From the IMG/VR virus record IMGVR_UViG_3300008448_000045, positions 1 through 64,000 of that record: a stretch of DNA of 64,000 bases. One strand, given 5' to 3'. Numbering within the stretch: position 1 is the first letter of the stretch; the number at the start of each line of letters is the position of its first letter. The stretch comes from a virus. A program made the translations under genes and the position numbers. This document shows, in pieces, positions 5,589-61,856 of this stretch. Below the pieces are notes generated by a model that was given only the letters and a program-made list of their open reading frames with translations, had not been told where the DNA came from and ran no database searches.

Positions 5589-5592
5589 TTAG
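5583..5592. repeat. Direct repeat GCTAGCTTAG, copy 2
   Basis: Second copy of the 10-bp repeat at 5321-5330. It overlaps the minus-strand stop codon at 5589-5591. Confidence 0.5.
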
Positions 5593-19400: not shown

Positions 19401-19930
19401 CTGAGATATTTGACTCAATTTCACCAGAGTTAAACTTAATAAAATCAATAAGCGATGAAATAATTTATCATCCGGCAAGCTACAAGATACTTTTTGGATC
19501 AATGGCCGAGTTAGAATTGCAAGCAAGTTTTAAGGTTGTTAAAAATCCTTCACAGGTCATATCAGATAGCGATATAAAGTTACAAGTTGTTACAGCCATT
19601 AACCAATTTTTTAATTTAAGCAATTGGGAATTTGGCGACACATTCTATTTTACAGAGTTAGCTACCTACGTAACTTCTACTCTAGCACCAAACATAGCAA
19701 ATTTTGTTATTGTTCCTAGAAAAGAAGGTTTAAATTTTGGTAGTCTTTTTGAAGTTAAATCTGCAAGTGATCAGTTGTTTATAAGTGGAGCAACTGTTGA
19801 CGATGTTGAAGTTGTTACAGGATTAACATCAAGTTCTATTAAAGCAATAACTAGTACACAAGCAGATGCGGTTAACATCACCCAACAAAATGTTACAAGT
19901 TCACCCTACGGAGTAATGAATGGCAGATAA
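16463..19930 (+). CDS. 6: Baseplate wedge protein gp6
   Basis: A 1,155-residue protein with the conserved gp6 opening: DWKKVYQSFKNADFQ (about 16-30), DYIRTNYPEDFNDYIE, then ARENFLELAERRDSVLRLA (about 84-102). gp6 dimers build the inner baseplate ring that opens when the tail contracts. It is much longer than T4 gp6 (660), with extra beta-rich material around residues 550-900. Its last 11 bases overlap the start of the giant gene, giving tight coupling within the wedge set. It has its own late promoter. Confidence 0.9.
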   Translation: MSVTNRQNRLLVTQDWKKVYQSFKNADFQSYDFENLRRTMIDYIRTNYPEDFNDYIESSEYLALIDLIAFLGQSIAFRVDLNARENFLELAERRDSVLRLARMISYNAKRNIPSQGLLKFTTISTTENVIDSNGRNLANQTVSWNDPSNSNWYDQFIKIINAALPGTQQFGNPADSGNVYGIPTEQYRFQSSNTNVPIYAFTKIVDGRSMNFEITSTVFSNNGYIYEEPPKLGNKLSFIYRDDGRGLGSASSGFFLNFTEGTLNTGTFTINQPSSNQSVDIDAQNINNNDVWLYSLDTIGAESNLWTQVSNFKGNNVIYNSINKDIRNIYSAITRANDTISLQFSDGIFGDLPRGTFRTYYRTSNGLQYTINPRDIRNVSININYFSAQGQQQTLTVTLALSSSVSTSSVTESNESIKANAPANYYTQSRMITGEDYNISPLAVSSQIAKIKAVNRSSSGVSRYFDLADPTGKYSSTKLFADDGILYTENYNGSLRFSYKNKTDIEGIVYNDVYDLLRRPNLKHFYYSNNVSLITASLNVVWNMVTQDTGMSTGYVGNLTDGIIYKVGSFTPTDLKFLKPNALVKFNAPPGYYFDTNKSNKLVLGSSAEKGALTSIWAEVISVVDDGTASGKGVLNSGFGPITLNKTVPSNSIISEVISPWRMSIESSVITTMIDLIFNNKPFGLRYDSSVQQWKIVFETNLNTVSNFSLANAGDITGKSLDASWMLLFTTDNEFYTITTREQQYIFESENQLRFFLDDQSDIYDSTTRLVIKDTLSVLGINSQPDTNMPYTVDHIWEIVSEFNGLDGYVDNKKIIVSFADSDNNSVVDNPDLFLNIVSPLTNVTKKYILQEKYTIAEGQDDYRYVSNHDDKVIILDSEGSVGSKQKYVAGQHFYFIDKKVVKQLNSTKDELIPSLNYKLFVGRDSLKFQYNHYAKYDSRIDPGVSNLIDVFVLIKNYDIAFRQWLLKPTLSKPLPPSSAEIFDSISPELNLIKSISDEIIYHPASYKILFGSMAELELQASFKVVKNPSQVISDSDIKLQVVTAINQFFNLSNWEFGDTFYFTELATYVTSTLAPNIANFVIVPRKEGLNFGSLFEVKSASDQLFISGATVDDVEVVTGLTSSSIKAITSTQADAVNITQQNVTSSPYGVMNGR

Positions 19931-34900: not shown

Positions 34901-34910
34901 TCAAGGATAA
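19920..34910 (+). CDS. Giant gp7-like baseplate/fibre protein, 4,996 residues
   Basis: This single frame fills 15 kb, almost a quarter of the window. The N-terminus (ADFLPKFYQTTANKKFLQAT, from residue 17) and FYSWDPHIDWDKFVNFQNYY (about 122-141) match the large gp7-like protein that follows gp6 in marine T4-like phages; T4 gp7 has 1,032 residues. Visible modules: FG-GAP-type propeller repeats between about 2,310 and 2,900; three 40-45-residue YKI..G.T.F...GA repeats at about 2,542-2,650; a KVSSTVGI module near 2,361 and again near 3,980; paired GxGY repeats near 3,278-3,347 and 3,651-3,727; a conserved EVKPYRTIIREYISSY near 3,573; and a QLRRGTLGT fibre motif near 4,790. It may combine wedge and host-contact functions. 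No frameshift was seen along it. The gp7 identity is inferred from position and N-terminus. Confidence 0.75.
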   Translation: MADKTNPNANFGNITSADFLPKFYQTTANKKFLQATVDQLIQPGTVKKINGYIGQENAKATSGDDIFIKAANSVRQQYQLEPGFIVTDELGNNNFFKDYQDYINQLGVFGGNTKDHSRLNQQEFYSWDPHIDWDKFVNFQNYYWLPYGPDAIEISGQQEKIESVYKVRLESQLSNNAYIFTPDGFERNPSLKLYKGQTYIFEIDSPSNPFVIKTHRSSGTLDKYLSDLLVYKTADEKITEAVESGTITFTVPFDCPDILFYVSTTDVNVGGVIYVTSIEENTSINVEEEVLGKKNYHLPAGFNLSNGMKVRFVGNVTPEKYKDTNWYVEGVGNEISLINEKDLDIVGKYTDIESVLFDSTPFDSLPFSDATTFAGQKDYIVINRASSDRNPWSRYNRWFHKDVVETSAKINGQNTANLDQDARAVRPIIEFEAGLKLFNFGLNSISNIDLIDTFTKDVFSNIEGQLGYNIDGVQIIEGHRILFVADEDILVNNKIYRVEFLTYEGERRIHLQEEVSPNINDVLVIDAGEINQGLAYWFNGTSWDLAQQKNTVNQPPLFDVFDNNLISFGDVTEYPGSTFIGTKIFSYKIGLGSNDLKLGFPLTYKNISNIGDIVFEFNLSWDTFQYKTDSNLVTQKIDVGYLYKKSNYSHNYINGWQTCKTTTTQAAIRIYKNSNITNNFKLDIFDNVDQLEDLIIKVYVNGVRLDGAKWSLITNNSFKEILLNEDIKTSDVLTIKAYTAQPVNNNGYYEVPINLQNNPLNEPVQLFTLGEVIDHVSSIENNVPFTGPLRDLGNITQYGTRFVQHSGPLSLAIYHLTNEKNNIVKAIELARDDYGKFKRQFILIADKFGEDIDIPSQVDKILQIMNKDKPKNSPYYFSDMVPFISCVSNEYEVIDSRIKTYPLINNFNLDTLSSRAVLVYINGTQKLARKDYTFNDQGFIVITSSINVGDKIKICEYENTSGCFMPPTPTKLGLWPAYEPKIYLDTSLVTPRVMIQGHDGSQILAYGDYRDVLLLELETRIFNNIKVTYDTSIFDIWDIVPGYNRKNNYSLEEYNNVLAPSFYKWSSLVNKDFTKPLSFDKTNSLTFNYKDNFSLNGTDVPGYWRGIYRWMLDTDRPNIAPWEMLGFSIQPTWWEDVYGPAPYTSDNLILWNDLADGIIRKPNSPAVSNKKFQRPFLKTNIPVNDQGNIISPATSGLVNGVIMPSIVDNFVFGDVSPVEAAWRRSSYYSFSVILAAILLQPAKTLGSCFDLSRTKRNLAGQLIYSDTGLRIAPSDLKIPNVYTSTERTQTAGLINYIIDYIVSDNLSLYNAYIYDLKNLQARLTHRIGGFTSKEKFNLLLDSKTPTSKGSVFIPQEDYSIILNSSSPIKKLSYSGVIITKLPIGFGTGFGFEVKGYSKTTPYFIYYPYTQPGSIVNVGGISEAFTTWSTNSRYAAGKIVSYNNNFFRSKVLHTTTDEFIPTFYEVLGSLPVVGGQTAYIRDTWDKTSPQTIPYGTTFYTIQEVVDFLLGYGEWLKDQGFVFDDFNTAMEAIANWETSAKEFLFWTTQNWSIGKDKWKEWKPNTFISVGSVVRYNSEYYRAIVDAQESTIFVEQNYVKLDYLTDLGSSVISLSPSANKISFKAELSIAEDIRNPFNPYEIVKVDGTPILPEFINSYRKENNMSYSSTNGDGIYGASFYLIQKEQVVVLNNSTMFNDTIYSTSSGYRQQRIKAAGYVSTNWQGSFDVPGFIFDQAYILPWEPWKDYVLGDIVRYKEFYYTAITSLPGAEIFDLESWTKLDKTPSPELLPNWNYKATQFTDFYNLDSDNFDISQQKVAQHLIGYQKRQYLENIIQDDVSEFKFYQGMIGEKGTNNALNKLFDVLSASNKESVDFFEEWALRVGQYGASQSFDSLEFILDERLFKNNPQGFELVNETNSNTFDFIIRQTPADVYLKPLGYNSKPWRLLTNNSSYLRSPGYVRPDSVKLLLRSIDDIVNEDVTSFVEGEHVWCGFEGASWNVYRYTETNLQVTNAVYKTDTKELIITTKTNVNLVPGTYIGINQTKKINGFYKINSVNKDSFTVSAIITPAPAKFEDQKSILIFKFDPQRISSIDLADEVTPAYPNAGEIIWTDDAGNGKWASWKYTPVYDENRIANISPAYNLQVGKQVAINSASTIAASSSLTGTVTVYDRPNLLSPWILRDDIDPPFISNQQLGVETSRYEGSVLSITSDARWLATGTPTASRVTTKYLGNWNQSTSYQVDDIVSFNNTFWKAIQTSSATQPSATGTKWDEIYYIPVNRSGNNSSLVGQGIISLYQKDSNNIFTLVDSIVSPEPSANENFGSTITFGNNCLFVGATGSDNSSGKVYQFNYETIVMASSPYNPSGSNGTRLKVSSTVGISADMLVSGIGFNKGQYVVLILDSTTLQLSDPPDQTPDGILNFTVTKWKYVGKKTAGSQAKIQFGKSIAISKDSSTLLISAPGTTTFLTNNTVDVNGIVFVYKNIGNNIYEQSQDPIVGADVKFGEGLAVSDTGEYIAISSVLFDGLKLDQGKVLVYKTTTSTTAVHASDLIPGRVYKINSAGSTNFINAGAFENKVGETFTATNNLVVAQGNLEVGKSYKISSIGTTDFTLIGAASNTLGLEFIATSTGTVGSRFLVNGKTYRIKTLGDTNWASVGAVSATFEASIINATMTVFSVASGTLQPEQGISGVGIVAGTYIINQLTGTPGQAGTYTVSINQPSLVSNTTVKSFAVGMTFQATGASSALATGTAVQGTGVVTTTGIVNQILYTQYQEILSKTPGVAEFFGSKISFLNDSESLVIFSPNATVKNIVTFDNNGTTFDDETTDFLYNKPNTGRVDVYDKYSEKWIFAESLTNKTQGSGYGHAIAVGYNTVLVGAPYEYDRFSFSGKVFTYQKLRNSYSWKILNSEGNKVDLTKIKQAFLYNSRSNKVITQLDVVDVVQGKLPKIANEEIKYKTFYDPAIYSSGLDNVNVDEGAAWTKEYVGQLWWDLRTAKFIDSYDKTDVVYRNSTWNTLFPGASVDVYEWVETTLTPDQWNAQADTDAGLSNGISGTSLYNNTTYSIVKRYDRISKSFKNTYYYWVKNKKTIPANKSRIISAIDVANLIANPRGAGYKFLALTSENSFSLVNVQPLLDNKDVILGIEYWNTENIDQNIHSQWKIISNTDRDVIPKNIEQKWFDSLSGKDLYGRPVPDPLLPPKLMFGIENRPRQGMFINRFEALKQFIETVNLTLAGYQLVGQKNLTSFDQYELEPSKETTGLYDDVKDTDAELRFASVGLFKKPVLIPVIEDGKITDVIIEEKGNGYLNPPYLQIFGTGQDASIRTIINSIGQVVDIDIINPGEGYTSNTILSIRNYSVLVHADSQAQGVWSIYSYDSDTLLWTRERSQSYDVRRFWNFIDWYALGYNQFTSVDYIVNSFSDLISLDTAVGQTVKLTSSSSDSTWLLLEKYTNSESVDWTQSYKVIGREKGTIQLSPALYNFENTVFGYDGSLYDGTVFDSAASKELQIMLESIKNNIFIDDLRSKYLELFFNSIRYAFSEQIYVDWAFKTSFVRAQHNVGELRQPVTYKNDNLENFEDYIDEVKPYRTIIREYISSYDSTDVVSSSVTDFDLIPASEDKQSRSIITEVVNGKILAKDNLINSYPWKFWLDNIGFVVTEIKVTSGGSEYKTEPTVRIISNSGTGASAKAFVANGQVTRVVVVENGAGYLSAPQIVIEGGTRGTVAKAIAVIGDSVVRSNKIQIKFDRITYNYFLNQLESVDTHTGTNTKFQFPLTWAPDVRINKSTVSIKLANTTEFNEVLRDTYKLSIVTSLVNGSTQYSGSITFNSAPPKNSTIKIEYLKDWSLLNAADRIQYYYNPLDGMPGKDLEQLMDGIDYGGVQILGLGFEIGQGWDSLPFFSDRWDSFDSEYDDYVTTISDINENTFILNYVPNAGTKLNVYHAKLVVDNVVSDGANLRYPYDALGRNQVVTILTPTTNQAIGILVNYVPTGSSGTTLKVSSTVGIEPNMTVIGDGFFSSQFVVEIIDNTTLKLSNGPNIQIGTNSRLYFTKNIAGRNIIHVQSTHGVEVGDTVIINPLVSNTIAFDTVVTNVLDSRRVEIDQILFRDIAPPSTDTTDPIPPLIYVNFSRTLTPGVDYVQGITSEIKLTEAAEVGSVVSISSLLAPIRIDAEDYDAIEGSPTNENAVMETVISTGEPDAPNSTKYSVEIPSDYVLSQGDKIIIRKDTSDGSINPQEGDYDTSLVGGQFAESSLISALGIAADEIIVDGDGFVTTTNSHAPEEIVPGQIVDAVAIKVYERPSSGSATIKVDNYLANGDQKEFALSQTPNSQEAVIVKLTKKIEVDGEITTISSIMNRIEDYDVLFNNRSVKFNVPPEAGNTVSLFSIGFSGTDILDIDYFVGDSNNIDFVTKASWVDQFVALVYINGIKADPRFFKTDDSYEEPNRIGIRFGVAPAQSDIINYILVANSEQTFALTKTERLQTDGSLVYDLSYQVGDSLPYESNMIVRVNQQILQGPSNSYFTIGSNRLNYSIDPAKFPPNSVSIQNIVVLADGKPLISNVDYTIDLSGITVKINRTTYAKYVKKDLTVSIKPDTGYVYIPATPTESPKISFSESYDESDIVEVISSYKHDVLDIKRTSIPVSPNLSLEPDTVEFYSYVGIAGGIVPLERAVNSSEYIWVINNGELLVPGSDYILNSDKKSLRLSSPPSSTDKVDIITYSSNIISTGVSYMQFKDMLNRVHYKRLSARKQTRLAADLKYTDTTITVEDASNLSIPNPAGNKPGIIEIRGERIEYFTINGTVLGQLRRGTLGTSTPKIHKQDAFVQDISSSETIPYSDTLISDSVVSSGTSSVTVDFSPAEFNSTWNYQGKPLTTEVINSIKNNVAEVFVSGMRLKKKNYLMYDKDLGPYSPAADRSYPAEFTINNLNSQILLTESPTYGDTVTVAKKIGVDWDGVTKVTNTESNISSFLKAEQGIWYNSIGKYPEGQSTFDNNTGTFDNDSITFDQG

Positions 34911-41850: not shown

Positions 41851-44800
41851 ATGGCGGGCCAATATTCACCAATTTTAGCAACTGACTATAATATCATACA
41901 AGCAAAGGTTGACAAAGTTTTAGGTTCCGGCCTTGAAAACTTTGGATACGGCCAACCCGTTAAAAGTGGTCAAGTTTTAAGAAGAACAAACATTACTTCT
42001 AATCAATGGAATAACTTAAGAAAAGATTTAATTAAAACTCGGTTACATCAAACAAACATTGATTATGCAAACACATTAAAAGAAGCCGGCAGAGTCGATC
42101 CCGAAGATAGCAATAAAAAAATACCTATTAATGACAGTGATTTTCAAGTTTTTAGCCAAATGGCCGAAGATGTCATTAACGATAGATTTAATTTACCAGC
42201 AGGCCAAGGCACAAGAGAAGCATTAGTTCCGACTCAGCAACTATCAACAGCATGGAACGGCACTATAACTCAAGTAATAACAATTACGTTTTCAAGTGTA
42301 GAAGCAACTCGTTATTTTTTCAATAGCGGTGGAAAAATAGAATTTAGCGGAAATAGAACCGGGGGAACATCTAGTACTAAAAACACTACTTGGTCGAGCA
42401 TGTTAGGCCAAGGAGCTAACGGTATGGGCGTCATTCAATTTGGACACAACTCTACAACTTGTTCAGGTACCGGCCAACCAGCAGCCATCGGATATTATAA
42501 TCTATTAGAAACAACTACAACTGATCAATTATTGTTTACTAAAGGCCCTCCAGAAGGTCCGTATTCCACAGCTTACTATTACATTTATGGACGCTCACCT
42601 GTACCTAATCAAATAGTTTTTACTATTCAATGGCAAGATGGTCAAGAAGAAAATTCTCAAGATGAGAATGTTGATGGAACATTATCTAGTTATGTACAAG
42701 TTTTTAGAGCATCGTCGGCTACAGATAGCGAAGGCGAATACATTAGTGTAAACATTCCTAAACCGCCAGCAATTACAACAGGACTAGCCGGGGGTATTCC
42801 AACACCAGCTCCAGAAATTGTTATTGGTCCTTCACAAAATAGTATCGCTCAACCACAAGTGGGGGTGGCGTATACACTAGCGTTTGGTGCGATCAACGGT
42901 ACAAGTCCTTATACTTGGAGTTCAATTGGAACTTTACCAGCAGGCTTGACTCTTAATCCTACAACTGGAGTGTTAAGCGGAACACCAACAACAGCATTAA
43001 GTTATCTATTTTATGTAGTTGCACAAGATGCAGATGGATATACTGGATCTGCTCAATATAATTTAATCGTAGAAGCTGGTGTTAGCCCAACAATTACAGT
43101 TACTCCAGTTACTTTAAATCAAATGCAAGTTGGATCAGCATTTTCACAAGTGTTTAGTGCCACCGGCGGCACCGGTCCCTATACATGGACGACTCTTGGT
43201 AGCGTACCGTTAGGAATAACATTAGGGACAAATAATAATGGATTCCCAACATTAAGCGGTACTCCTACCGCACCTCAAGCATATAGTTTTACAGTAAGGG
43301 CCACTGATGTTAATAATTTCTTTGGAGAACAGGCTTTTATTATTACTGTAGCCGCTGCCCCAACAATAACAATCAATCCAGGGTCTCCGTTAGCGTCACA
43401 GAGTGTTGGACTAGCTACAACCCAAAGTTTTACAGCTACTGGCGGCACTTCGCCCTATACTTGGTCTAAGACAGGTACCCTACCCGCCGGCCTAACTTTA
43501 TCGTCAGCTGGTGTATTGTCAGGAACCCCAACCACAGCAGCAACATATAACTTTACAGTTATAGCAACAGACTCAAGAAGTTATACTGGCGAAAAAGCAT
43601 ATTCTCAAATTATAACAGCTGCACCAACTTTATCAGTATCTCCAACTACTTTAACTATGCAGGTGGGCGTGTATTATACACAACAATTATCGGCAATTGG
43701 TGGAACAACTCCCTACACGTTTGAGCTATCAAGCGGATCATTACCAGCAGGAATAACTTTACAAGGTAATGGTTTAAGCGGTACTCCTACTTCGACAACA
43801 GCTGCGTCATTTAATATTAGAGTTACTGATGCAAATAATTTTACTGGTGTTACTCAGTATCTTGTTTCTCCAGCCCCTGCACCGCAATTTGCAACAACAA
43901 TAACACCAGCAAGCAGTAGTACAACTGCTGGAACTTATGCCGACACTTATAGATTTAGTAAAACTGGTTCAACTACCTTTACAGTTAATTGTACTTCTGG
44001 ATCAGGGCAAGTTACCTTAACTACTCAAAGTAATTCTGAACTGACGTCAGCATACACCTATTTTGGTGCAGGTGAAAATGCATTCGGTGGTGAATTTGAT
44101 ATAGCATCTACTGGCGACATTGGACTTGCAAAAACTATAGGTGATTATTTTTATGCTAGCAATAATGCTTGGTATAAGACAGAAACTGTTGCAGGTGTTG
44201 ATCGAACAGTTTATAATAAATCTAATAATGCTTGGACACAGTTCCTTAACAATTATGCAGTATGGCCTGACTCAGGCGACGGCCCCGTTAATTCTTGGGT
44301 TGGAGTATCTTATAACGTAAATATTGCAACAGCAGGTAATTATGTATTAAGAATTAGTTCAGATAATCAATTAGAAGTATCCGTTGATGGGACACTAGCA
44401 GCTAGTATTTCAAGTTATACAACAACTTCTGATACAACAATTAGTTTAACACAAGGCTTGCACACAATTACTTGTAGAGGAAAAAATACAGGAGGTCCTG
44501 CAGGCTTTGCCGCAGCTTTGTATGCACAAGGTAATTTAAGTAGTGCAGTTTGGACAACTAGAAATACTAGTGACATTACGGTACAGGTAGTTAAGTACGG
44601 CCTTTATAGAAAACCGGATGCTCAAGGACTAAAATCTTGGTTAGACTATGCAAAGAACAATAATATAAGCGACCCCATAACTTCTCAACAATTTAAAAAT
44701 GCTTTTGCAGCAGTTTTAGACAATGGTTCTAGATCAGCGGATAGCGATTGGGCAAGAAGCACAACAGCTACAAAAACATTTGCATCTGGAACAGGTAATG

Positions 44801-44991
44801 GAGATTTTTATGACAGGCCCGTAGCTGTTAATGCTACTTGCTCACCTGCGTCCTTTAGTTTAAGTGCTGGTAATTCACAAGTAGTAACAATGAATTGGAC
44901 TGTACAAGCCGGATCTGCTGTTAATCCGTGGCAATTCACAGCAATATCAAGTGCCGGTGGAACGTACCTATTTACAATTTATAGAACATAA
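41851..44991 (+). CDS. Adhesin-like virion protein with four putative Ig repeats
   Basis: A 1,046-residue protein. The N-terminal 300 residues (DYNIIQAKVDKVLGSG, FGYGQPVKSGQ, QWNNLRKDLIKTRLHQT) are paralogous to the next gene and probably anchor it to the virion. Four He_PIG-type Ig-like repeats follow (about 325-680), each with GGT.PYTW...G.LP.GL.L...G.LSGTPT. Next comes a beta-sandwich region resembling PA14-type sugar-binding domains (NYVLRISSDNQLEVSVDG, about 831-848). A short DUF4214-like stretch follows (YGLYRKPDAQGLKSWLDY, about 915-932), then a C-terminal beta domain. Ig-like and PA14-like domains on phage surfaces usually help weak adhesion to carbohydrate. Late promoter and AAAGGA ribosome site are present. 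PA14 and DUF4214 calls are by resemblance only. Confidence 0.75.
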   Translation: MAGQYSPILATDYNIIQAKVDKVLGSGLENFGYGQPVKSGQVLRRTNITSNQWNNLRKDLIKTRLHQTNIDYANTLKEAGRVDPEDSNKKIPINDSDFQVFSQMAEDVINDRFNLPAGQGTREALVPTQQLSTAWNGTITQVITITFSSVEATRYFFNSGGKIEFSGNRTGGTSSTKNTTWSSMLGQGANGMGVIQFGHNSTTCSGTGQPAAIGYYNLLETTTTDQLLFTKGPPEGPYSTAYYYIYGRSPVPNQIVFTIQWQDGQEENSQDENVDGTLSSYVQVFRASSATDSEGEYISVNIPKPPAITTGLAGGIPTPAPEIVIGPSQNSIAQPQVGVAYTLAFGAINGTSPYTWSSIGTLPAGLTLNPTTGVLSGTPTTALSYLFYVVAQDADGYTGSAQYNLIVEAGVSPTITVTPVTLNQMQVGSAFSQVFSATGGTGPYTWTTLGSVPLGITLGTNNNGFPTLSGTPTAPQAYSFTVRATDVNNFFGEQAFIITVAAAPTITINPGSPLASQSVGLATTQSFTATGGTSPYTWSKTGTLPAGLTLSSAGVLSGTPTTAATYNFTVIATDSRSYTGEKAYSQIITAAPTLSVSPTTLTMQVGVYYTQQLSAIGGTTPYTFELSSGSLPAGITLQGNGLSGTPTSTTAASFNIRVTDANNFTGVTQYLVSPAPAPQFATTITPASSSTTAGTYADTYRFSKTGSTTFTVNCTSGSGQVTLTTQSNSELTSAYTYFGAGENAFGGEFDIASTGDIGLAKTIGDYFYASNNAWYKTETVAGVDRTVYNKSNNAWTQFLNNYAVWPDSGDGPVNSWVGVSYNVNIATAGNYVLRISSDNQLEVSVDGTLAASISSYTTTSDTTISLTQGLHTITCRGKNTGGPAGFAAALYAQGNLSSAVWTTRNTSDITVQVVKYGLYRKPDAQGLKSWLDYAKNNNISDPITSQQFKNAFAAVLDNGSRSADSDWARSTTATKTFASGTGNGDFYDRPVAVNATCSPASFSLSAGNSQVVTMNWTVQAGSAVNPWQFTAISSAGGTYLFTIYRT

Positions 44992-45000
44992 AGGTATCTT

Positions 45001-47655
45001 ATGGCAGCTGGAATAGGTAGTAAAATAGAATGGTCAGATTATCAAGCAATTCAAACATTAGCCGCTAAAGTTCTTGGAACTGGTACAGGATCATACGGCT
45101 ATGGACAAACAATATCTAGTAGTGCAACGTCTCAACAGTTTCAAAAAATTACAACACAACAGTGGTTAGATGTTAGAAGAGATATTTTAAGATGCCGTAT
45201 GCACCAAACAGGTGTTGACTATTCGGCAAGTTTAACCTCACCGACTACCGATATAAAATTACAAGAAGCTGATAGACTTGCCTACTTAAATATGGCAACC
45301 CTAGCGGAAACAAATGCTTTAGTAGTAGCATCTACTCAAGCTACTCGAGCAACTATTGTTTCCGCTGTATTTGAAGATACATGGTACACTTCAGTAGGAC
45401 TAACCTATACAGTAGAATTTCCTACGTACGATGACGGCCGGTACTTTTTTAATGCTGGCGGCCAGATTGAAATAAGTTCTAGTAGAGCCGGCGGAACTAG
45501 CCCATCCCCAAAGAATTCAACTTGGTCTACAATGCTTTCTACTATGGGTAATATAATTTTTAATTACACTTCTACTACAAAAACAGGCACAGGCGGAACA
45601 GGATCAACTATTGGATTTTATGATCTTACTACAAGCGATCAAAAAATATTTGAACAAAATGCTCCAACTGGAGGATCTTACTCTTTAAATAAATTTGTTA
45701 TTAATGCTAAAAAGAATGTTAGCGGAACACAAATAATTTTTACTATTCAATATCTTGACCTTGCTACATATACTAATACAACTGTTTTTGGGCCTGGACT
45801 AGGTCCGTACGGTCTAGACGAAGCTGTTGACGGCACACTAACTAATACAGTAAAAACTTATAGAGCTACACAGCCTACTGGTGTAGACAGTGTAGAAGTA
45901 AGCAATCCTTCAATTTTTGTTTCTAATAACTGGTCAATAATTGAAGGAGGTGACGGGTCAACTATAGCACCTAGTGTAGTTATTACTCCTGCAACACTGA
46001 CTAATCCTCAAGTTGAAATTGCATACAATCAAACATTTACAGCTACTGGTGGAACATCTCCGTATACGTGGAGTTATACAGGACAGTTGCCAGCTGGTTT
46101 ATCTTTAAGTACAGGTGGAGTATTGAGTGGTACTCCTGCAACAGCACAGGGCTACAGTTTTGCAATCACCGCCACTGACTCAACTGGATATATTGGAGTT
46201 AAAGGCTATACGGTTACTGTATCACAACCTACAATTACAGTTTCGCCAACATCATTAACTGCTCCTAAAGTAGGAACAAGTTATGGAGTGTCTTTTAGTG
46301 CTACAGGCGGAACCGGACCATATTCTTGGCAAAGTTCGGGAACACTTCCTCCAGGTCTTTCTTTAACTACTGGCGGCGTGTTAAGCGGAATTCCTACAAC
46401 GTCAGGCACATATTCATTTACTATACAAGTGTTTGACAGATTTGCTGCACCTGGCGCAAGAGCCTTTAGTGTAACAGTTGCAGCAGCATCAGTAATTACT
46501 ATATTACCTAGTACAATTTCAAATTCAGCAATGCAAAAAGGTGTTGCTTATTCTCAAACATTTACAGCCAGCGGTGGTACAGCACCGTACTTATGGACAA
46601 GCGGTGGAGCTGTTCCTTCTGGATTATCATTAACTACTGGCGGCGTGTTAAGCGGCACTCCGACAGCAGATACAACATATACATTTACAATTAAGGCTCA
46701 AGATAGTTCAGCAGGAGCATATAGCGCCACAAACAGCTATACTGTCACAGTACAAGCCCCAGTCCTTCCTCCTGTTCCAACAATTACAGTTACACCTACT
46801 ACGCCTAGTACAATGGCTGTCGATTCTGCCTACAGTAGGCAATATTCAGCAACTGGCGGCACCGCACCTTATACATTTAGCCTAGTTAACGTTTTACCAC
46901 CTGGAATAGGATTATCACCAGGCGGCCTTGTAAGCGGCACTCCTAGTTTTGATGCAGGCGGAAAAACTTATAGCTATGGAATACGGGCTACTGATCAAGG
47001 CGGCTATTCTGGAACAAGAGCTGTGTCAATTACAGTTACAGCAGCTCCTCCCCCAACTACTAATATTAGCCCAGCATCGTCTACTGAATATGTGTCCTAT
47101 GGAGATACCTTTAACACCGCTTCAAGTGGTAGTAGCGGATTCCAAGTTAACTGTACAGCAAACTATGGACTAGTTGACATGTCTGGTAGAGTTTTATCAG
47201 GACAAACTGGCGGAACCGCAACAACAAACATTGATCAATTTAGTATTAGTTCTGGTAACTCAAGAACTGTAGTATTAAATTACACACAGGCCAGGGGAAG
47301 TTTACAAAATCCTTGGAAATACTATGCTGATGCAAATACAGGCGGCACTCACGAATTAATAGTCATGCGATCAGCATCAAATATTTCAAGTCCAGCTCCG
47401 GGCAATTATAGTTTACGAGTTGGAGTTGCACAGTCTTTTCAATTTACCGGTTCCGGTGCATATTCGCCGTTTACAAATTGGGAAGTATCTCAAGGAACGT
47501 TGCCAACAGGATTAAATCTTAGCAGCAGCGGGCTTTTATCTGGGACTATTGTTGGATCAGCTGTAAACCAAACTTTTATTTTTAAAGTTAGATCTCTTGA
47601 TAGTGTTGGTGTTTATATGACTGAAGGTACATATACAGTTACCACAACAGCGTAA
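45001..47655 (+). CDS. Adhesin-like virion protein with five putative Ig repeats
   Basis: An 884-residue paralogue of the preceding gene. The shared N-terminus shows DYQAIQTLAAKVLGTGTG, YGYGQTISS and QQWLDVRRDILRCRMHQTG. Four He_PIG-type repeats lie at about 320-690 (for example GGTSPYTWSYTGQLPAGLSL, GGVLSGTPAT), and a fifth, divergent one forms the C-terminus (about 800-884: NWEVSQGTLPTGLNLSSSG). Between them is a beta domain like the C-terminal domain of the previous protein (SGNSRTVVLNYTQ, NPWKYYADANTGGTH). It follows its partner by 9 bases and is probably co-transcribed. It is the last gene before the host-type promoter at 47681, so it likely ends the late structural block. Confidence 0.75.
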   Translation: MAAGIGSKIEWSDYQAIQTLAAKVLGTGTGSYGYGQTISSSATSQQFQKITTQQWLDVRRDILRCRMHQTGVDYSASLTSPTTDIKLQEADRLAYLNMATLAETNALVVASTQATRATIVSAVFEDTWYTSVGLTYTVEFPTYDDGRYFFNAGGQIEISSSRAGGTSPSPKNSTWSTMLSTMGNIIFNYTSTTKTGTGGTGSTIGFYDLTTSDQKIFEQNAPTGGSYSLNKFVINAKKNVSGTQIIFTIQYLDLATYTNTTVFGPGLGPYGLDEAVDGTLTNTVKTYRATQPTGVDSVEVSNPSIFVSNNWSIIEGGDGSTIAPSVVITPATLTNPQVEIAYNQTFTATGGTSPYTWSYTGQLPAGLSLSTGGVLSGTPATAQGYSFAITATDSTGYIGVKGYTVTVSQPTITVSPTSLTAPKVGTSYGVSFSATGGTGPYSWQSSGTLPPGLSLTTGGVLSGIPTTSGTYSFTIQVFDRFAAPGARAFSVTVAAASVITILPSTISNSAMQKGVAYSQTFTASGGTAPYLWTSGGAVPSGLSLTTGGVLSGTPTADTTYTFTIKAQDSSAGAYSATNSYTVTVQAPVLPPVPTITVTPTTPSTMAVDSAYSRQYSATGGTAPYTFSLVNVLPPGIGLSPGGLVSGTPSFDAGGKTYSYGIRATDQGGYSGTRAVSITVTAAPPPTTNISPASSTEYVSYGDTFNTASSGSSGFQVNCTANYGLVDMSGRVLSGQTGGTATTNIDQFSISSGNSRTVVLNYTQARGSLQNPWKYYADANTGGTHELIVMRSASNISSPAPGNYSLRVGVAQSFQFTGSGAYSPFTNWEVSQGTLPTGLNLSSSGLLSGTIVGSAVNQTFIFKVRSLDSVGVYMTEGTYTVTTTA

Positions 47656-47729: not shown

Positions 47730-48080
47730 ATGGATGAAAGAGTTGAAAAAGCATTCTCTGTTGCTAATCATATGGCAACATTATCAAATCAACGAAGAAT
47801 TATTTTAGAAGAATTTAACCAAAAACGGGTATATTATGTTAATGGCGGCACATTTAACATAACCCCGGAGTTGATCAATTTTACTAAAACAACATTAGAT
47901 TTAGGTTATACAACTGACGTTGCATTTATTGATGCAAATAATTTTCCAGTTGTTATTTCAAACGTACAAGAGTTTTTAGATAATATTGTAGGAGTATACT
48001 ACGAAGTTCTTAATGACTATAGTGCTAAGTTTGCAGAATTAAAATCAAAAAGAAAAATAAAGGATATTATTGATCTATGA
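47730..48080 (+). CDS. Conserved small phage protein, unknown function
   Basis: A 116-residue protein of a type I recall in marine T4-like phages. Conserved-looking stretches are VANHMATLSNQRRIILEEF (about 11-29), VYYVNGGTFNITPELINFTK (about 34-53) and a C-terminal Lys-rich helix (KFAELKSKRKIKDII). No catalytic motif is seen. It is the first gene after the host-type promoter, with GGAGG six bases before the ATG, and overlaps the next gene by ATGA. Confidence 0.7.
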   Translation: MDERVEKAFSVANHMATLSNQRRIILEEFNQKRVYYVNGGTFNITPELINFTKTTLDLGYTTDVAFIDANNFPVVISNVQEFLDNIVGVYYEVLNDYSAKFAELKSKRKIKDIIDL

Positions 48081-48922
48081 CAGTTGGTGCTGTATTTTTT
48101 GCTCAAAATAACGGTGCAATTGATTATGTAAAATTAGCAAATTTCGCCGCTATTAGAGTAAAAGAATTTTTAGATATACCTGTATCGATAGTTACAGACA
48201 GCCCAGATTGGCTTAATAAATCGTGCCCTAATCATCCTTTTGAAAATATCATTGTTGTTCCAGAAGAAGAAAGTTATAAAAAAGAATTTTATGACGGATC
48301 GCTAACATCAAAACCGTACAATTGGAAAAACTTGTCTAGACCAAAGATATACGAAATTACCCCGTACGAAAAAACACTAGTGCTTGATAGCGATTATATT
48401 ATAAATTCAAATATTTTAAAGATTGCTCTTGACAGAGATGTTGAGTTTCAAATATACAAGAAAAGTTTTGATCTATCTACCTGGAGAGATCCAGCACCAT
48501 TTACAAGAATTAATAGTTATAGTATACCGTTTTATTGGGCAACTGTCTTTATCTTTGAAAAATCTCCAGTTAGCGAAGCATTTTTTGATTTAGTAAACTA
48601 TATAAAGATTAATTGGGTATATTTTAGAATGTTATACAACATAGATCCTCCTATGTTTAGAAATGATTTTGCTTTTAGTATAGCTATTCATATTATGAAT
48701 GGAAAAACTAATGGGGGGTTTGCTACAGAACTCCCTGGGAAAATGACTTATTCTCTTGATCGAGATGTATTAGTAAGTATGAATCAGACAGAAATGAAAT
48801 TTTTAATTGAAAAGAAAGACCATCTTGGAGAATACATCTTAGCTAAAACTAATGGCCTTGATGTACATGTTATGAATAAATTTAGTCTTTCAAGGTGTGT
48901 TGATAGGAGCACAGGTGTCTAA
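48077..48922 (+). CDS. Glycosyltransferase-like protein A (GT-A fold, GT8-like)
   Basis: A 281-residue protein. It opens GAVFFAQNNGAIDYVKLANF, has IPVSIVTDSP (about 34-43) and TPYEKTLVLDSDYII (about 95-109). The DSD there would be the metal and nucleotide-sugar binding DxD motif of GT-A enzymes. A His (VHVMNKFSL) near the end could be the C-terminal metal ligand found in GT8 enzymes. It is a paralogue of the next gene. The acceptor is unknown; phage fibres or the host envelope are candidates. The 8-bp overlap with its paralogue suggests the two are made together. Confidence 0.7.
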   Translation: MTVGAVFFAQNNGAIDYVKLANFAAIRVKEFLDIPVSIVTDSPDWLNKSCPNHPFENIIVVPEEESYKKEFYDGSLTSKPYNWKNLSRPKIYEITPYEKTLVLDSDYIINSNILKIALDRDVEFQIYKKSFDLSTWRDPAPFTRINSYSIPFYWATVFIFEKSPVSEAFFDLVNYIKINWVYFRMLYNIDPPMFRNDFAFSIAIHIMNGKTNGGFATELPGKMTYSLDRDVLVSMNQTEMKFLIEKKDHLGEYILAKTNGLDVHVMNKFSLSRCVDRSTGV

Positions 48923-49748
48923 AGGTTTTTTAGTTTTTGCTCAAAATACCGCTGATGTTGACTATGTTAAACAGGCTTATGCATTAGCCTTGTCTATAAA
49001 ATTTAGTCAAAAACAAATTAACAATATTTCAATTGTAACTAACGAATTGTTAGATGACAAATATCGTTCTGTATTTGATCAAGTAATTCCTATTCCTTGG
49101 GTTAAGGACGGCACACGATATCAGGCCGAGAATAGATGGAAGTTATATCATGCCACGCCATATGAAGAAACTATAGTTCTTGATACTGATATGTTACTAT
49201 TAGAGGACATTAGTAGTTGGTGGGAATATTGCTCTAATCATAATTTAAAATTTTGTTCTAAAATAACTAATCATAAATTAGATCCAATTGTTGATACTAT
49301 ACATAGGAAAGCATTTGTAGTTAATAATTTAACTAGCCCTTATTATGCATTACACTATTTTAAAAAGCATCAGTCTACACACGAATTTTATAAAGTTTTA
49401 GAGTTTGTGTGCAACAATTGGGAGTGGTGCTGGACAAAGTTTGCGCCTAACGAATATCAAAATTGGTTAAGCATGGACCTTGCTGTTGCAATAGCTATAG
49501 AAATTACCGGTAGATATGATTCAGTTGATGATGTTTGTTCTCCGTTAGAGTTTGTTCACATGAAACCTAGTATCCAGCAATGGATAATGACTCCTGGGCA
49601 ATGGCAAGACGGAGTTCAAAGTTTATTAACAAAAAAAGGCGACCTTGTTGTTGGAAATATTAAACAATCAAAGTTGTTTCACTATATCGATAAAAATTTT
49701 ATTACAGCAAAGATACTTGAACGGCTTGAGGATTTAGCAAATGCCTAA
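48915..49748 (+). CDS. Glycosyltransferase-like protein B (GT-A fold, GT8-like)
   Basis: A 277-residue paralogue of the preceding protein: GFLVFAQNTADVDYVKQAYA aligns with its N-terminus, and TPYEETIVLDTDMLLLED (about 86-103) gives the DxD motif. FHYIDKNF near the C-terminus offers a late His. I choose the GTG at 48915 because AGGAG lies 6 bases upstream and the N-terminus then aligns residue for residue with the paralogue. A GTG at 48897 would add six residues with no ribosome site. It overlaps its neighbours by 8 bp on each side. Confidence 0.7.
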   Translation: MSKGFLVFAQNTADVDYVKQAYALALSIKFSQKQINNISIVTNELLDDKYRSVFDQVIPIPWVKDGTRYQAENRWKLYHATPYEETIVLDTDMLLLEDISSWWEYCSNHNLKFCSKITNHKLDPIVDTIHRKAFVVNNLTSPYYALHYFKKHQSTHEFYKVLEFVCNNWEWCWTKFAPNEYQNWLSMDLAVAIAIEITGRYDSVDDVCSPLEFVHMKPSIQQWIMTPGQWQDGVQSLLTKKGDLVVGNIKQSKLFHYIDKNFITAKILERLEDLANA

Positions 49749-50331
49749 TAAAATTAAAGAACCAACTAGATATATTCCTCAGTGTTATGTTTACTATAAC
49801 AAGAAAACAGGAGAGATACTGTCAGTTACTAATAGAAAAGACGATGCTTATGAAAATGGTATTGAAGTAAACTTTGAAGATGTCGAAAAATTTTTAACTG
49901 GCGAATGGCATTTTAGCGACTTCCAAGTTGGATACCATAAAGATTCAAATAAGACAACTATATTATCTATTACAAATGAATTTTCCGGATACTCATTTAA
50001 AAATAATATTTTTGAGTGGATATCTGCATCAAATGAATATGCTGAATGCATAGTTGAATGGAATAGTAAAGACCAAGTATGGAATTTTTTCTTAAGTAAT
50101 GATTTTAAAAGAGAATACAATACAATACTATCCCCAAAGTTAGTATTTTTTGTAACTTTAGAGAATGACCCTGATTTTTTAATAAGGACAGTTTTTATTA
50201 ATACACAAGATCTTTTAAAATTTGATTGTGTCACTGTTCCTTTTGAAAGTACTTTTGAAAAATATATAGATAAAATTTCCATAAGCTCTAAATTAGTGTT
50301 TAAAACTTATAAATTAAAGGTAGTTGAATGA
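49741..50331 (+). CDS. Unknown protein of the glycosyltransferase cassette
   Basis: A 196-residue protein I do not recognise. The N-terminal part (RYIPQCYVYYNKKTGEILSV, about 10-29) and a later PKLVFFVTLENDPDFLIRTVF stretch read as beta strands with aromatic and acidic residues. No DxD or other catalytic motif is visible. It sits between two pairs of glycosyltransferase-like genes, overlapping the upstream gene by 8 bp and the downstream one by ATGA, so it may serve the same process, for example as an acceptor or accessory subunit. Confidence 0.65.
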   Translation: MPNKIKEPTRYIPQCYVYYNKKTGEILSVTNRKDDAYENGIEVNFEDVEKFLTGEWHFSDFQVGYHKDSNKTTILSITNEFSGYSFKNNIFEWISASNEYAECIVEWNSKDQVWNFFLSNDFKREYNTILSPKLVFFVTLENDPDFLIRTVFINTQDLLKFDCVTVPFESTFEKYIDKISISSKLVFKTYKLKVVE

Positions 50332-51225: not shown

Positions 51226-52938
51226 ATGTACGATATCTTTTTTATAGGAAACAATAGCTCAGACTTTGAACAATTAAAGTTACGGTTTCCTACAACAAAA
51301 TATATTCCTGTTGACACAGACATATACGATGCGCTATGTACAGCAGCTAAACGATCTTTTACGAAAATGTTTTGGGTAGTTTGGGATAATTTATTAATTC
51401 AGAATAATTTTAATTTTGACTATAAAGTTCCTGAGTGGGATACTGGATATAATCATATTTTTCGAAATGGTGAATTCTTTGATGGAGTTTGTCTGTTCCC
51501 CAAAAAAATAAAAGTCAGTAAACGAGAAGCTGACTACAGATTCTTTACTAATAAAAAAGAAATTGATATACAAGCTAGCTTTTCAAAACCTTATCAACGA
51601 TTTAAAATTAGTAATTATGATCAGTACCTAGATGCACTTAAGACTAGTGAAACTGACATGTTTTGGTGTGTATGGCCTGAGATTGAAATTTTAGATAATA
51701 GTATATTTAAAACTGTTTTTAGTTTTCACAATACTTACGATCGACAAGAAAATCATGTATGGAAAAACTTATGTAATGAAAACTCTTCATTTATAAGTGG
51801 ATTAACACTATTTTCTAAATTTAAACCTGTCTCAAAAAGAGAAGTAAATTATAAGATGTTGATAAATCGAAAAGAATACGATTTAGCAGTATCAAGGTAT
51901 CGGTATCCAAAATATTTTATCAATACTTACGAAGAATATTTAGAGATACATCAAAAAGAACATCAACCTCTTTTTTGGTGCATATGGCCAGAGATTGAAA
52001 TTTTAGATCAAACAATTTTTGATTTATACTATGATCCGTTAGATGGAACATTTAATTATGATAGAGAAGAAAATCATGTATTTCAAAATCAAGATATTAG
52101 TGAAATAAAATATAACGGTCTAATGTTAATGTCAACTTTAAAATCTCCAGTTTCGAAAAAAGAAATAGATTTTAGATATATTATTAATAAAAAAGAGCAT
52201 CAAACTTTAACAAGCAAATTAAAATTATATGATGTAGTTTTTATCAGCTATAACGAAGCTAATGCAGATCAAAATTATCAATCTTTGCTTAATATCTGTC
52301 CTCGAGCTAAACGAGTTCATGGAGTAAAAGGTATTCATAACGCACACATTGAAGCAGCAAAATTAGTTAGTACTCCTATGTTTTGGGTTGTTGATGCTGA
52401 TGCAATTATAGAAAAAGATTTTAATTTTAATCTTTTGCTTCCACATTATGATAGAGATGTAGTCCATGTTTGGCAAAGTCAAAATCCTATAAATGATTTA
52501 GTATACGGATACGGAGGAGTTAAATTGTTGCCAACTAAGCTAACTTTAAATATGGATGTTAATAATCCTGATATGACAACTAGTATTAGTTCAAAATTTA
52601 AAGCTGTTGACGCTATATCAAATATAACAGTATTCAATACAGATCCGTTTACCACTTGGCGGTCCGCATTTCGAGAGTGTGTAAAGTTATCTTCGAGAAC
52701 TATTGCAGGACAAATTGATAAAGAAACTATTGATCGATTAAACACCTGGTGTACTAAAGGCAAAGAGAAACTTTACGGTGAATTTGCAATTTTAGGCGCA
52801 CTCGCTGGCAGACAGTACGGACATAAAAATGCCGGTAATAAACCGGCACTGATGAGAATTAATAACTATGCTTGGTTACAAGCCGAGTTTAATCGCCAGA
52901 CACAAACTCTCCAGCCATTGGAAATATTTCAGCAATAA
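51226..52938 (+). CDS. Glycosyltransferase-like protein D with three degenerate N-terminal repeats
   Basis: A 570-residue modular protein. The C-terminal domain (about 335-570) matches the preceding gene: FISYNEANADQNYQSL, AKRVHGVKGIHNAHIEA, MFWVVDADAII (about 385-395, DxD) and TTWRSAFRECVKL. The first 335 residues are three units of about 100 residues with the same framework but the acidic motif lost: MFWVVWDNLL near 48, MFWCVWPEIE near 145 and LFWCIWPEIE near 248. Each is followed by H.F.N, then a VSKREIDYR...NKKE block. They look like decayed copies of the catalytic domain that may now bind acceptor or sugar. The gene ends inside the convergent thyX gene (50-bp overlap). Confidence 0.75.
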   Translation: MYDIFFIGNNSSDFEQLKLRFPTTKYIPVDTDIYDALCTAAKRSFTKMFWVVWDNLLIQNNFNFDYKVPEWDTGYNHIFRNGEFFDGVCLFPKKIKVSKREADYRFFTNKKEIDIQASFSKPYQRFKISNYDQYLDALKTSETDMFWCVWPEIEILDNSIFKTVFSFHNTYDRQENHVWKNLCNENSSFISGLTLFSKFKPVSKREVNYKMLINRKEYDLAVSRYRYPKYFINTYEEYLEIHQKEHQPLFWCIWPEIEILDQTIFDLYYDPLDGTFNYDREENHVFQNQDISEIKYNGLMLMSTLKSPVSKKEIDFRYIINKKEHQTLTSKLKLYDVVFISYNEANADQNYQSLLNICPRAKRVHGVKGIHNAHIEAAKLVSTPMFWVVDADAIIEKDFNFNLLLPHYDRDVVHVWQSQNPINDLVYGYGGVKLLPTKLTLNMDVNNPDMTTSISSKFKAVDAISNITVFNTDPFTTWRSAFRECVKLSSRTIAGQIDKETIDRLNTWCTKGKEKLYGEFAILGALAGRQYGHKNAGNKPALMRINNYAWLQAEFNRQTQTLQPLEIFQQ

Positions 52939-53581
52939 CTTGAGCACATGCTCGAGCAACTTCCATATGCTCTTTTTGTGTACCGTTGCCAGAACGTAAT
53001 TGAATAAAGTGAATCCATGAACGTAATGTACCATTCATGTATAAACGACTTACTGTAAGACCTTCTGGTAATACAGCACGAGCTTGTTCTTTAGCGATAC
53101 CGTTATCAATAGCCCATTTATATTCTTGTTTGACTGCAAACAATACACGTTTTTGAGCACGTTCCCATTCGTAAGAAAGTTTTCTTTGAGTTTCGTCTTC
53201 TAAGTCTAATGCTACACTATTTTGTCTATTTTTAGTATCTTGAAAACGAGCTTCTCGTAATACAAACGCATCATCAAGTTCTGCTGTTGGGTCAGCATAA
53301 CGCTGGCTAAATTCTTGGAAACTAAAACTACGATGTCTAAGAATTTGACGAGCAATGTCTCTAGTAGTTGTAATTTCTAAGCAGGCACTTACCATTTCTA
53401 AAGGAGACCAGTGCTGGTGTTTGATTAAGTACCTAATTAGCTTTTCGCTTGTTTCAGTGTTAAATTGGTTGCTTGGATTACTTACTCTAGCACAAAACGC
53501 AATAAGTTCTTGTGCATCGTAAATACCTTCGTCCGCCATATCTCTACTAGCTTTAGAAGAATTAATTAATTTAACTTTCAT
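52889..53581 (-). CDS. thyX: Flavin-dependent thymidylate synthase ThyX
   Basis: A 230-residue ThyX. The signature RHRSFSFQEFSQRYAD (about 82-97) fits the RHRxxSxxxxSxR motif that binds FAD and dUMP. A C-terminal stretch (LRSWIHFIQLRSGNGTQKE, about 183-201) carries the conserved LR...HF...R. The enzyme makes dTMP from dUMP using methylene-tetrahydrofolate and NADPH, supplying thymidylate for an AT-rich phage genome. It starts directly after the stop of the upstream gene (TAA ATG) and converges with the glycosyltransferase D gene. Confidence 0.95.
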   Translation of the reverse strand: MKVKLINSSKASRDMADEGIYDAQELIAFCARVSNPSNQFNTETSEKLIRYLIKHQHWSPLEMVSACLEITTTRDIARQILRHRSFSFQEFSQRYADPTAELDDAFVLREARFQDTKNRQNSVALDLEDETQRKLSYEWERAQKRVLFAVKQEYKWAIDNGIAKEQARAVLPEGLTVSRLYMNGTLRSWIHFIQLRSGNGTQKEHMEVARACAQVIAEIFPMAGEFVSGD

Positions 53582-60297: not shown

Positions 60298-61281
60298 TTA
60301 TTCTCCTTGGTATTTGGCTTGGAATGGTTCTGCATATTGCTGAACATTGTCTGCAACCTTTTTCATATCCCATGCATTACAGAACTTTAATAAACGAATA
60401 CCAACTTGTGTTACATCCTTAGGAACACAGTCGACTTTAATAGTTTTACTAATAAGTTCTTTAATGTTTTCTGGTTGATATTTTAGGTCAATTAATCGAC
60501 GATTGCGTTCGTAGTCATCTAAGACGCGATGCTCTGCACCTTCGTGGTCAACCCATCTCTGCAGCATGAGATTATTCCACGAATAGCCTTTGCTTTTACG
60601 ATCTTCGAACGCTTCAGTAAGACCCACTTTGTTTTTTGTGCCTTTAACACGCACACCCGGATACGCCGAGAAGACATTATCACTGGTATCACCACGCATA
60701 CACTTCTCAAACAATAACCATTCTGGGTGAACTTCTTTTGGTTCTTTTGTTTTTTTATCAACAACACGTTTACCCTTTGCATCAAAAATACCTTCGTGTG
60801 TAATATGATGTTCTTGTACACCATTATACTGGCTAACATTTGGAGCAATTAATTGATAAAAGTCGCTGTCAGTTGAAATGATTACGTGATTGTCATCGGT
60901 ATGACTTTGTATAAATCCAGCAATTAAATCATCTGCTTCTAGTTGTGGATGATGTAAAACTGTACAGTTAGTTTTTTCAATGATAAAGTTTTTAAATTCA
61001 TCAAATGCTTCCCAGAACAATTTATCTTCTTCTTGTTCTTTAACAGTCATAGCTGCACGAGTTTCGCTGCGATTACGTTTATAAGGCTCGTAAAAGTCCT
61101 TACGCCACGAACGACCTTCGAGGCAGAACACTACATGTTTCCCCTCAAAGTCATTCCATGCTTTTTTAATACTATTAAAGGTAATATGAAAAGCCATTCC
61201 TAGCTTAATATCACTAGATCCTTGAACAACATGTCTAGCACGAAAAAAAGTATTGGCTGTATCAACCAAAATATATGTCAT
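60298..61281 (-). CDS. rnh: RNase H / 5'-3' exonuclease, T4 Rnh-like (FEN family)
   Basis: A 327-residue FEN-type nuclease. MTYILVDTANTFFRARH (1-17) carries the first catalytic Asp; PQLEADDLIAGF (about 112-123) and IISTDSDFYQL (about 134-144) carry the acidic metal-binding clusters; MRGDTSDNVFSAYPGV (about 197-212) provides the later Asp residues and the start of the helix-hairpin-helix. The enzyme removes RNA primers and flaps from lagging-strand fragments. T4 Rnh has 305 residues. It overlaps the oxygenase-like gene by 4 bp. Confidence 0.92.
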   Translation of the reverse strand: MTYILVDTANTFFRARHVVQGSSDIKLGMAFHITFNSIKKAWNDFEGKHVVFCLEGRSWRKDFYEPYKRNRSETRAAMTVKEQEEDKLFWEAFDEFKNFIIEKTNCTVLHHPQLEADDLIAGFIQSHTDDNHVIISTDSDFYQLIAPNVSQYNGVQEHHITHEGIFDAKGKRVVDKKTKEPKEVHPEWLLFEKCMRGDTSDNVFSAYPGVRVKGTKNKVGLTEAFEDRKSKGYSWNNLMLQRWVDHEGAEHRVLDDYERNRRLIDLKYQPENIKELISKTIKVDCVPKDVTQVGIRLLKFCNAWDMKKVADNVQQYAEPFQAKYQGE

Positions 61282-61856
61282 ATGTAATATTCCATGTCTG
61301 CAGCAAAAACAAATCTGTAATCATCTGAGTCTATGATTCCAGGCCTATGCCATATTTTACTAGGATATATGACCCAAGTCAACTCCTTTGGTTTTAAGTA
61401 AAAAATATCTTTTTTGGTTGGCCAATCCATACAAAATTCTGTGCCAGCTGTATCTTGATTAGTAATTGACTTAGGAATATCCGCATACCAAACACCGCTA
61501 ATTGAATTAGTTGTTCCGTTATTGTTACTCAAATGGTGTGTGTGCCAAAGGTCGTCTCTATCCTCAACTTCGTTTTGACTGGTCATAAAACACCAAGCCA
61601 TCATGTTTTTAATTTTAACTTCACCGCCTAAAAATTGAAAAACAGAATAAATGAAACTTTGTCTCATTTTTAAAAAAACTGCTTCGTTGCGAGCAAACAA
61701 GTTTTCTTGTGTTTGAAACTTTGGACTATTTTTAAAATAATTGCCAGAGTCAATAATTTGTTTAACTACAGAAGTTAATTGATTCATATCTTCTTGTTTA
61801 ATTAAAGAAGACCAGTCGTATAAATCAATATATTCATTCTTATCAACAACTACCAT
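61278..61856 (-). CDS. 2OG-Fe(II) oxygenase-like protein (double-stranded beta-helix)
   Basis: A 192-residue protein resembling phage 2-oxoglutarate/Fe(II) oxygenases. DLWHTHHLSN (about 102-111) is the likely first metal site, SISGVWYAD precedes a core strand, and LTWVIYPSKIWHRPGI (about 158-173) supplies the distal His and following loop. The final RFVFAADMEY is the last strand, with Arg as a possible 2OG contact. The usual HxD is replaced by HxH/HTHH, so iron binding may differ or the protein may be a cupin-like relative. The substrate is unknown. Its stop overlaps the RNase H start by 4 bp. Confidence 0.6.
   Translation of the reverse strand: MVVVDKNEYIDLYDWSSLIKQEDMNQLTSVVKQIIDSGNYFKNSPKFQTQENLFARNEAVFLKMRQSFIYSVFQFLGGEVKIKNMMAWCFMTSQNEVEDRDDLWHTHHLSNNNGTTNSISGVWYADIPKSITNQDTAGTEFCMDWPTKKDIFYLKPKELTWVIYPSKIWHRPGIIDSDDYRFVFAADMEYYI

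Follow-up and report, generated by a model that had tools for sequence, protein, structure and literature searches.

Protein P, encoded in the 64,000-nucleotide window that we analysed (positions 1 to 64,000 of IMGVR_UViG_3300008448_000045, a 76.8-kb virus fragment), carries a GT-A glycosyltransferase (GT) domain at its C terminus, preceded by three units that are homologues of its own GT-A core, duplicated serially, and that have lost the catalytic motif; this homology is well supported. Among the relatives of P, 0-8, 10-12, 14 or 16 such units stand before one catalytic domain. In our preferred reading, to which we give about an even chance, P is a GT-A enzyme whose expandable array of non-catalytic GT-A cores serves to bind the acceptor or hold it in position, the acceptor probably being a fibre protein of the virion.

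The first-pass annotation of this DNA proposed that the framework MFWVV-DADAI of the C-terminal domain recurs, in altered form, in three N-terminal units of about 100 residues, and all three variants were found in the ORF where it had placed them (Table 1). Unit 1 comprises ~118 residues and units 2 and 3 ~107 each (range of all three 106-118 aa). Each motif is followed, as had also been noticed, by an H.F.N element (HIFRN, HVWKN and HVFQN; pattern HxFxN or HVWKN) and by a block resembling VSKREIDYR (VSKREADYR, VSKREVNYK and VSKKEIDFR). The C-terminal domain, which had been described as intact, has its DxD, the conserved loop and the C-terminal helices in place. At its 3' end, P overlaps by 50 bases (52889-52938) with a convergent ORF (52889-53581) that is thyX-like by its own sequence.

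Table 1. Positions in the window of protein P, its parts and the genes of the surrounding block
Feature	Position	Strand	Remarks
Putative fibre protein with He_PIG (Ig-like) repeats	41851..44991	+	Candidate acceptor; PF05345, E 7e-38
Putative fibre protein with He_PIG (Ig-like) repeats	45001..47655	+	Candidate acceptor; PF05345, E 8e-42
116-aa small protein	47730..48080	+	Directly after the fibre genes in most relatives
gtA, transferase-like	48077..48922	+	Paralogue of gtB (about 22% identical); invariant D-x-D
gtB, putative GT-A-like transferase	48897..49748	+	Invariant D-x-D, alignment positions D96/D98
196-aa protein between the GTs	49741..50331	+	Position kept in closer relatives
Q, stand-alone GT-A paralogue, 298 aa	50328..51224	+	36% identity with the P catalytic domain; lies immediately upstream of P
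P, 570-aa GT-A glycosyltransferase	51226..52938	+	ORF with ATG start; three N-terminal non-catalytic GT-A-core units
Unit 1, residues 1-118	51226..51579	+	Complete GT-A N-terminal core including beta1-alpha1
Unit 1 motif MFWVVWDNLL, residues 48-57	51367..51396		W in place of the first Asp of DxD
Unit 2, residues 119-226	51580..51903	+	GT-A core without beta1-alpha1
Unit 2 motif MFWCVWPEIE, residues 145-154	51658..51687		
Unit 3, residues 227-332	51904..52221	+	GT-A core without beta1-alpha1, like unit 2
Unit 3 motif LFWCIWPEIE, residues 249-258	51970..51999		
C-terminal GT-A domain, residues 333-562	52222..52911	+	D-A-D, SxNPxNxLxYGxGGxK loop, C-terminal helices (DPF.TWRSAFRE)
D-A-D, residues 390-392	52393..52401		Within the motif MFWVVDADAI, residues 385-394

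An HMM built from the three units matched the C-terminal GT domain of P itself (28.8 bits, domain i-E 1.3e-7) as well as stand-alone or single-domain GT homologues (i-E down to 4e-11), and when it was run against the ORFs of 146 loci, every one of the matches listed was a family member. A profile-profile comparison aligned 142 units with 73 GT domains over 64 columns, with a probability of 98.9% and an E value of 1.8e-17. The HMM and profile-profile statistics rule out a chance likeness of the FW motifs. In unit-free relatives, a 34-residue segment from the DxD strand onward reaches 68% identity with first units. Sequence profiles, fold prediction and a phylogeny of units across many phages all bear out the earlier proposal that the GT-A core was duplicated serially and that its copies lost the catalytic motif.

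An AlphaFold2 model of P, built on a 22-sequence alignment, gave a pLDDT of 89.4 and a pTM of 0.72 for the whole protein; the corresponding values for the three-unit array without the GT domain were 91.1 and 0.81. In the model, the strand and helix order of unit 1 (E3-7 H11-20 E25-27 H33-43 E48-53 E56-58 E76-81 E89-92 H99-104 E110-120) repeats in the catalytic domain (E336-341 H347-357 E362-365 H370-380 E385-390 E393-395 E413-419 E432-436 H437-441 H450-454 E458-468), with beta1-alpha1 missing from units 2 and 3. Five C-terminal helices (474-561) occur only in the catalytic domain, the units stopping after the long last strand. By predicted secondary-structure order, the VSKRE...KKE block of the units is the counterpart of MTTSIS...ISNIT in the GT domain, so that each unit amounts to a GT-A core lacking the C-terminal helices.

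When the whole of P was searched with Foldseek, the best PDB matches were the GT2-type GT-A enzymes K4CP (the top match), WrtF, GalNAc-Ts and the PBCV-1 capsid GT, with heparosan synthase and LH3 also among the matches. The C-terminal domain is predicted to adopt the GT-A alpha/beta core fold, GT2-like by fold only, and it presumably transfers a sugar from a nucleotide donor. The first-pass annotation had staked its reading on the units resembling the GT-A core, and the array modelled alone does match GT-A enzymes first, but weakly (best E about 1e-2); its match to 2p6w has a probability of 0.99 and an rmsd of 4.2 over 125 columns. The three units are likewise predicted to have the GT-A core fold, in addition to their profile homology to the GT domain.

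Motif residues were counted by alignment column in ~130 relatives, which supplied 462 non-terminal units and 132 terminal domains. D-x-D is retained in 132/132 terminal catalytic domains, and its first Asp is absent in 459 of the 462 units, where the column holds W (244), P (98), S (59), T (25), Y (16) or others, with Asp in 3. The third DxD position is D, N or E in 421 of the 462. The units of P carry W-D-N, W-P-E and W-P-E where the GT domain has D-x-D; the acidic DxD is gone in all three, as had been reported, with the refinement that the loss is chiefly at the first Asp. The units also lack the SxNPxNxLxYGxGGxK columns (NPxN/YGxGG loop) of the family's enzyme domain. Near-invariant residues specific to the units are E206 (460 of 462), H177 (454), G192 (451) and K216 (440), followed by R or K at 210 (434) and E217 (399). 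The dN/dS ratios were 0-0.18 across all three units versus 0.03-0.14 for the GT domain, rough values because several pairs have high dS. The term 'decayed' used for these copies in the first-pass annotation therefore does not fit: purifying selection much like that on the catalytic domain, together with the conservation of residues of their own, indicates that the units are constrained pseudo-enzyme modules rather than decaying copies.

Unit number differs between otherwise very similar loci. L023 (8 units) and L191 (6 units) have flanking DNA that is 96-97% identical (~96.5%) and near-identical GT domains, and the GT domains of L192 (5 units) and L194 (4 units) are 98% identical. Parsimony on the GT tree required 44 copy-number changes versus about 86 with shuffled labels, which suggests that copy number is heritable but labile. 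The first-pass annotation had left it to a phylogeny to tell whether the units arose once or repeatedly, and the answer is divided: first units cluster together in the unit tree and so the first unit appears to have a single origin, whereas inner units were gained and lost many times, with repeated lineage-specific expansion (for example, units 3, 5, 7, 9, 11 and 13 of L035 group together). The 14-unit P homologue of L035 (2571-7442) is built of strictly alternating W-type and P-type units with a dimer period of ~197 aa, suggesting that the recent duplication unit is the pair. In L040 (5001-6731), unit 2 is a recent full-length copy of unit 1 including beta1-alpha1, an independent duplication. 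In L139 (4430-6698), the P homologue occupies two overlapping ORFs that are out of frame with each other (4 units in the first, 1 unit plus the GT domain in the second), possibly reflecting a frameshift, a sequencing error or a real two-gene form; this is the only split ORF seen.

Copy number is unlikely to be an assembly artefact because identical counts recur across separate contigs, protein lengths of 764 aa and 1624 aa being found in eight and three contigs, respectively. An in-frame deletion of 183 bases within the repeats distinguishes the contigs of L015 and L024, which are ~99% identical; its junction shows a 6-base overlap. Individual counts could be assembly errors, especially where they depend on this deletion in L015. 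On the rooted GT tree, phage unit-free forms are nested in unit-bearing clades (clade supports 0.96 and 0.98) and thus look derived, through at least two losses. This nesting led us to reject a unit-free ancestral state; as deep support is low and the early branch L148 has no units, the original state may have been unit-free after all. L148, a contig from a Bdellovibrionales MAG, carries a unit-free P-type GT with homologues of the fibre, 116-aa, gtA and gtB genes on the opposite strand, and is possibly a phage contig binned into the MAG or a prophage.

The phage, from fresh water, is large and myovirus-like, and P closes its tail-fibre region at the 3' end. Upstream of the block are genes of the T4 gp9/10-like, collar and He_PIG Ig-repeat types, and the gp5-like hub is nearest to that of PA5oct-group jumbo phages (about 36% identity). 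Most relatives with flanking sequence keep the order fibre - 116-aa - gtA - gtB - (196-aa) - Q - P at any unit number, and Q neighbours P in most of them; in L035 and L207, which have long arrays, P comes before Q. Three phages with zero units (L115, L128 and L143) still have the GT in the same block, suggesting that the array is dispensable for the core reaction. How many units P carries did not correlate with how long the neighbouring fibre gene is (rho -0.16, p 0.27, n=50), the length used being that of the closest long ORF on the upstream side of the 116-aa gene rather than total Ig repeats, and we rejected the array as a simple ruler for the adjacent fibre. Elsewhere in the window, a 4996-aa ORF (19920-34910, + strand) between a large baseplate-like ORF and the gp9/10-like gene is unusually long for a baseplate or fibre protein. 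The same phage also encodes a putative 2OG-Fe(II) oxygenase (61278-61856, - strand; PF13759 just under the cut-off), and the sole Rfam match in the window is a Polynucleobacter-1 RNA (5448-5589, - strand; RF01718, 92 bits).

Relatives of P numbered 66 in one IMG/VR search and at least 80 loci in another, and about 130 were analysed; the family occurs in uncultured freshwater and other aquatic phages. In bacterial genome collections, partly in MAGs, the catalytic domain has diverged homologues. The 50,697 records of cultured phages in INPHARED contained no detectable homologue of P, Q, gtB, a unit-free GT or the 14-unit array. Sequence searches of Pfam, PHROG, NCBIfam and the PDB gave nothing at cut-off for P, and assignment to a known family was rejected on finding only sub-threshold matches to DUF6492, Glycos_transf_2 and Inhibitor_I24; PF00535 (Glycos_transf_2) scored 13.0 bits versus a gathering cut-off of 23.3, the best family member reaching an E value of 0.019. 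Neither the family libraries nor the open-access literature searched yielded an account of dead GT-A cores, derived from the catalytic half of the same enzyme, standing in a tandem array that can expand.

We propose that P grew at its N terminus when its own N-terminal alpha/beta core was duplicated in tandem and in frame, that the first Asp of DxD, the NPxN/YGxGG loop and the C-terminal helices disappeared from the copies, and that these dead cores would have been kept by selection as non-catalytic modules. Units would then have been multiplied and deleted, presumably by unequal recombination, giving 0-16 units before one intact enzyme. Their most likely role would be to bind the acceptor or hold it in position, or to hold neighbouring transferases; sugars would be added by the C-terminal domain together with Q, gtA and gtB, the likeliest acceptors being the Ig-repeat fibre proteins encoded just upstream. 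An array of binding modules, as the first-pass annotation had suggested, is plausible and has a precedent in the LH3 accessory domain; acceptor binding by the array is inferred, and the acceptor itself is presumably a virion fibre.

The main rival explanation is that the array forms a rigid GT-A-like stack with no ligand of its own, acting as a structural spacer or oligomerisation scaffold that keeps the catalytic domain some distance away or links it with Q, gtA and gtB. The high pTM of the three-unit array (0.81) points to units packed in a defined way relative to one another, inter-unit salt bridges could form between the unit-specific residues that are conserved most, which are charged (E, K, R), and copy number is only loosely constrained, as it would be for a spacer. 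A pure spacer would, however, have no obvious need for the H and G that are kept in >97% of units after the former DxD, although these could be structural, and we regard this explanation as a serious one that is nonetheless somewhat unlikely. The preferred reading also places the acceptor in the virion; the block could instead modify a host surface polysaccharide (receptor masking, superinfection exclusion) or the phage DNA, the units binding that polymer. Phage glycosyltransferases of all three kinds are known (PMC12619734), and the closest solved structures include the polysaccharide polymerases K4CP and heparosan synthase. Such a target is made unlikely by the position of the block directly behind virion fibre genes in most relatives with flanking sequence, and non-exhaustive annotation of this fragment revealed neither a membrane-bound glycolipid enzyme nor a gene for DNA-base hypermodification next to it.

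That the units are functionless relics on the way to loss would agree with the lost catalytic motif and with the two or more apparent losses among unit-free phages. It is contradicted by the low dN/dS in all three units and by unit-specific residues that are near-invariant across the family; moreover, arrays stay open over as many as 16 units, L139 being the one exception, and we give the relic explanation practically no chance.

If P does combine an enzyme with an acceptor-binding array, it is tempting to speculate that this array of variable length, made of pseudo-enzyme modules copied from the enzyme's own catalytic core, governs how the enzyme contacts a repetitive acceptor on the virion. 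Gain and loss of units would then tune virion glycosylation in much the way that adhesins are tuned by variable repeat domains, an extension that we consider rather doubtful. The family offers a natural dose series of 0-16 pseudo-enzyme units in closely related genes, so that the role of the non-catalytic copies is directly testable by unit swaps or trimming. The conserved four-transferase block behind the fibre genes is a candidate virion-glycosylation system that is missing from phage and Pfam family libraries.

Several known systems resemble P in part. K4CP (E. coli K4 chondroitin polymerase) and Pasteurella heparosan synthase have GT2-type GT-A domains in tandem in one chain. In these enzymes both GT-A domains are catalytically active, whereas in P only the last domain keeps DxD and the units are without C-terminal helices. 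The PBCV-1 GT domain (2p6w, 2p72, 2p73), described as involved in major capsid protein glycosylation, is a compact viral GT-A and the best single-unit-sized match to the array alone, but it is a single catalytic domain from another virus type and has no unit array. Among the viral fold matches is a phage enzyme, the mycobacteriophage Che8 glycosyltransferase (Q855A2), which has low sequence identity (9%) and at 391 aa is too short to accommodate a long unit array; glycans are present on virion proteins of mycobacteriophages, according to work cited in PMC12619734. Two uncharacterised proteins of uncultured Caudovirales phages, A0A6J5LK21 (804 aa) and A0A6J5L5L5 (1076 aa), matched over >600 columns (E about 1e-34, 20-22% identity) and are clear family members by fold; both are longer than P, suggesting more units. 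Moraphages, for which four core transferase orthogroups are reported and whose predicted hosts are Bacteroidota, were considered as a possible match and not adopted (PMC12619734).

LH3 (PLOD3) has a dead GT-A domain and an active one in the same chain, as P appears to have by motif and predicted fold. Its AC domain is GT-A-like, has lost catalysis and has been proposed to aid recognition of the substrate, collagen (PMC6082870). In contrast to P, LH3 has a single accessory domain, placed C-terminal to the active GT and without tandem expansion, as well as a 2OG-Fe(II) dioxygenase (LH) domain, whereas the P chain ends after the GT helices with no such Pfam match; sequence similarity between P and LH3 was not detectable. 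Single dead GT-A domains beside active ones are thus already known from LH3, and the catalytic part of P appears to be an ordinary GT-A fold; the novelty lies in the tandem, expandable array of dead cores.
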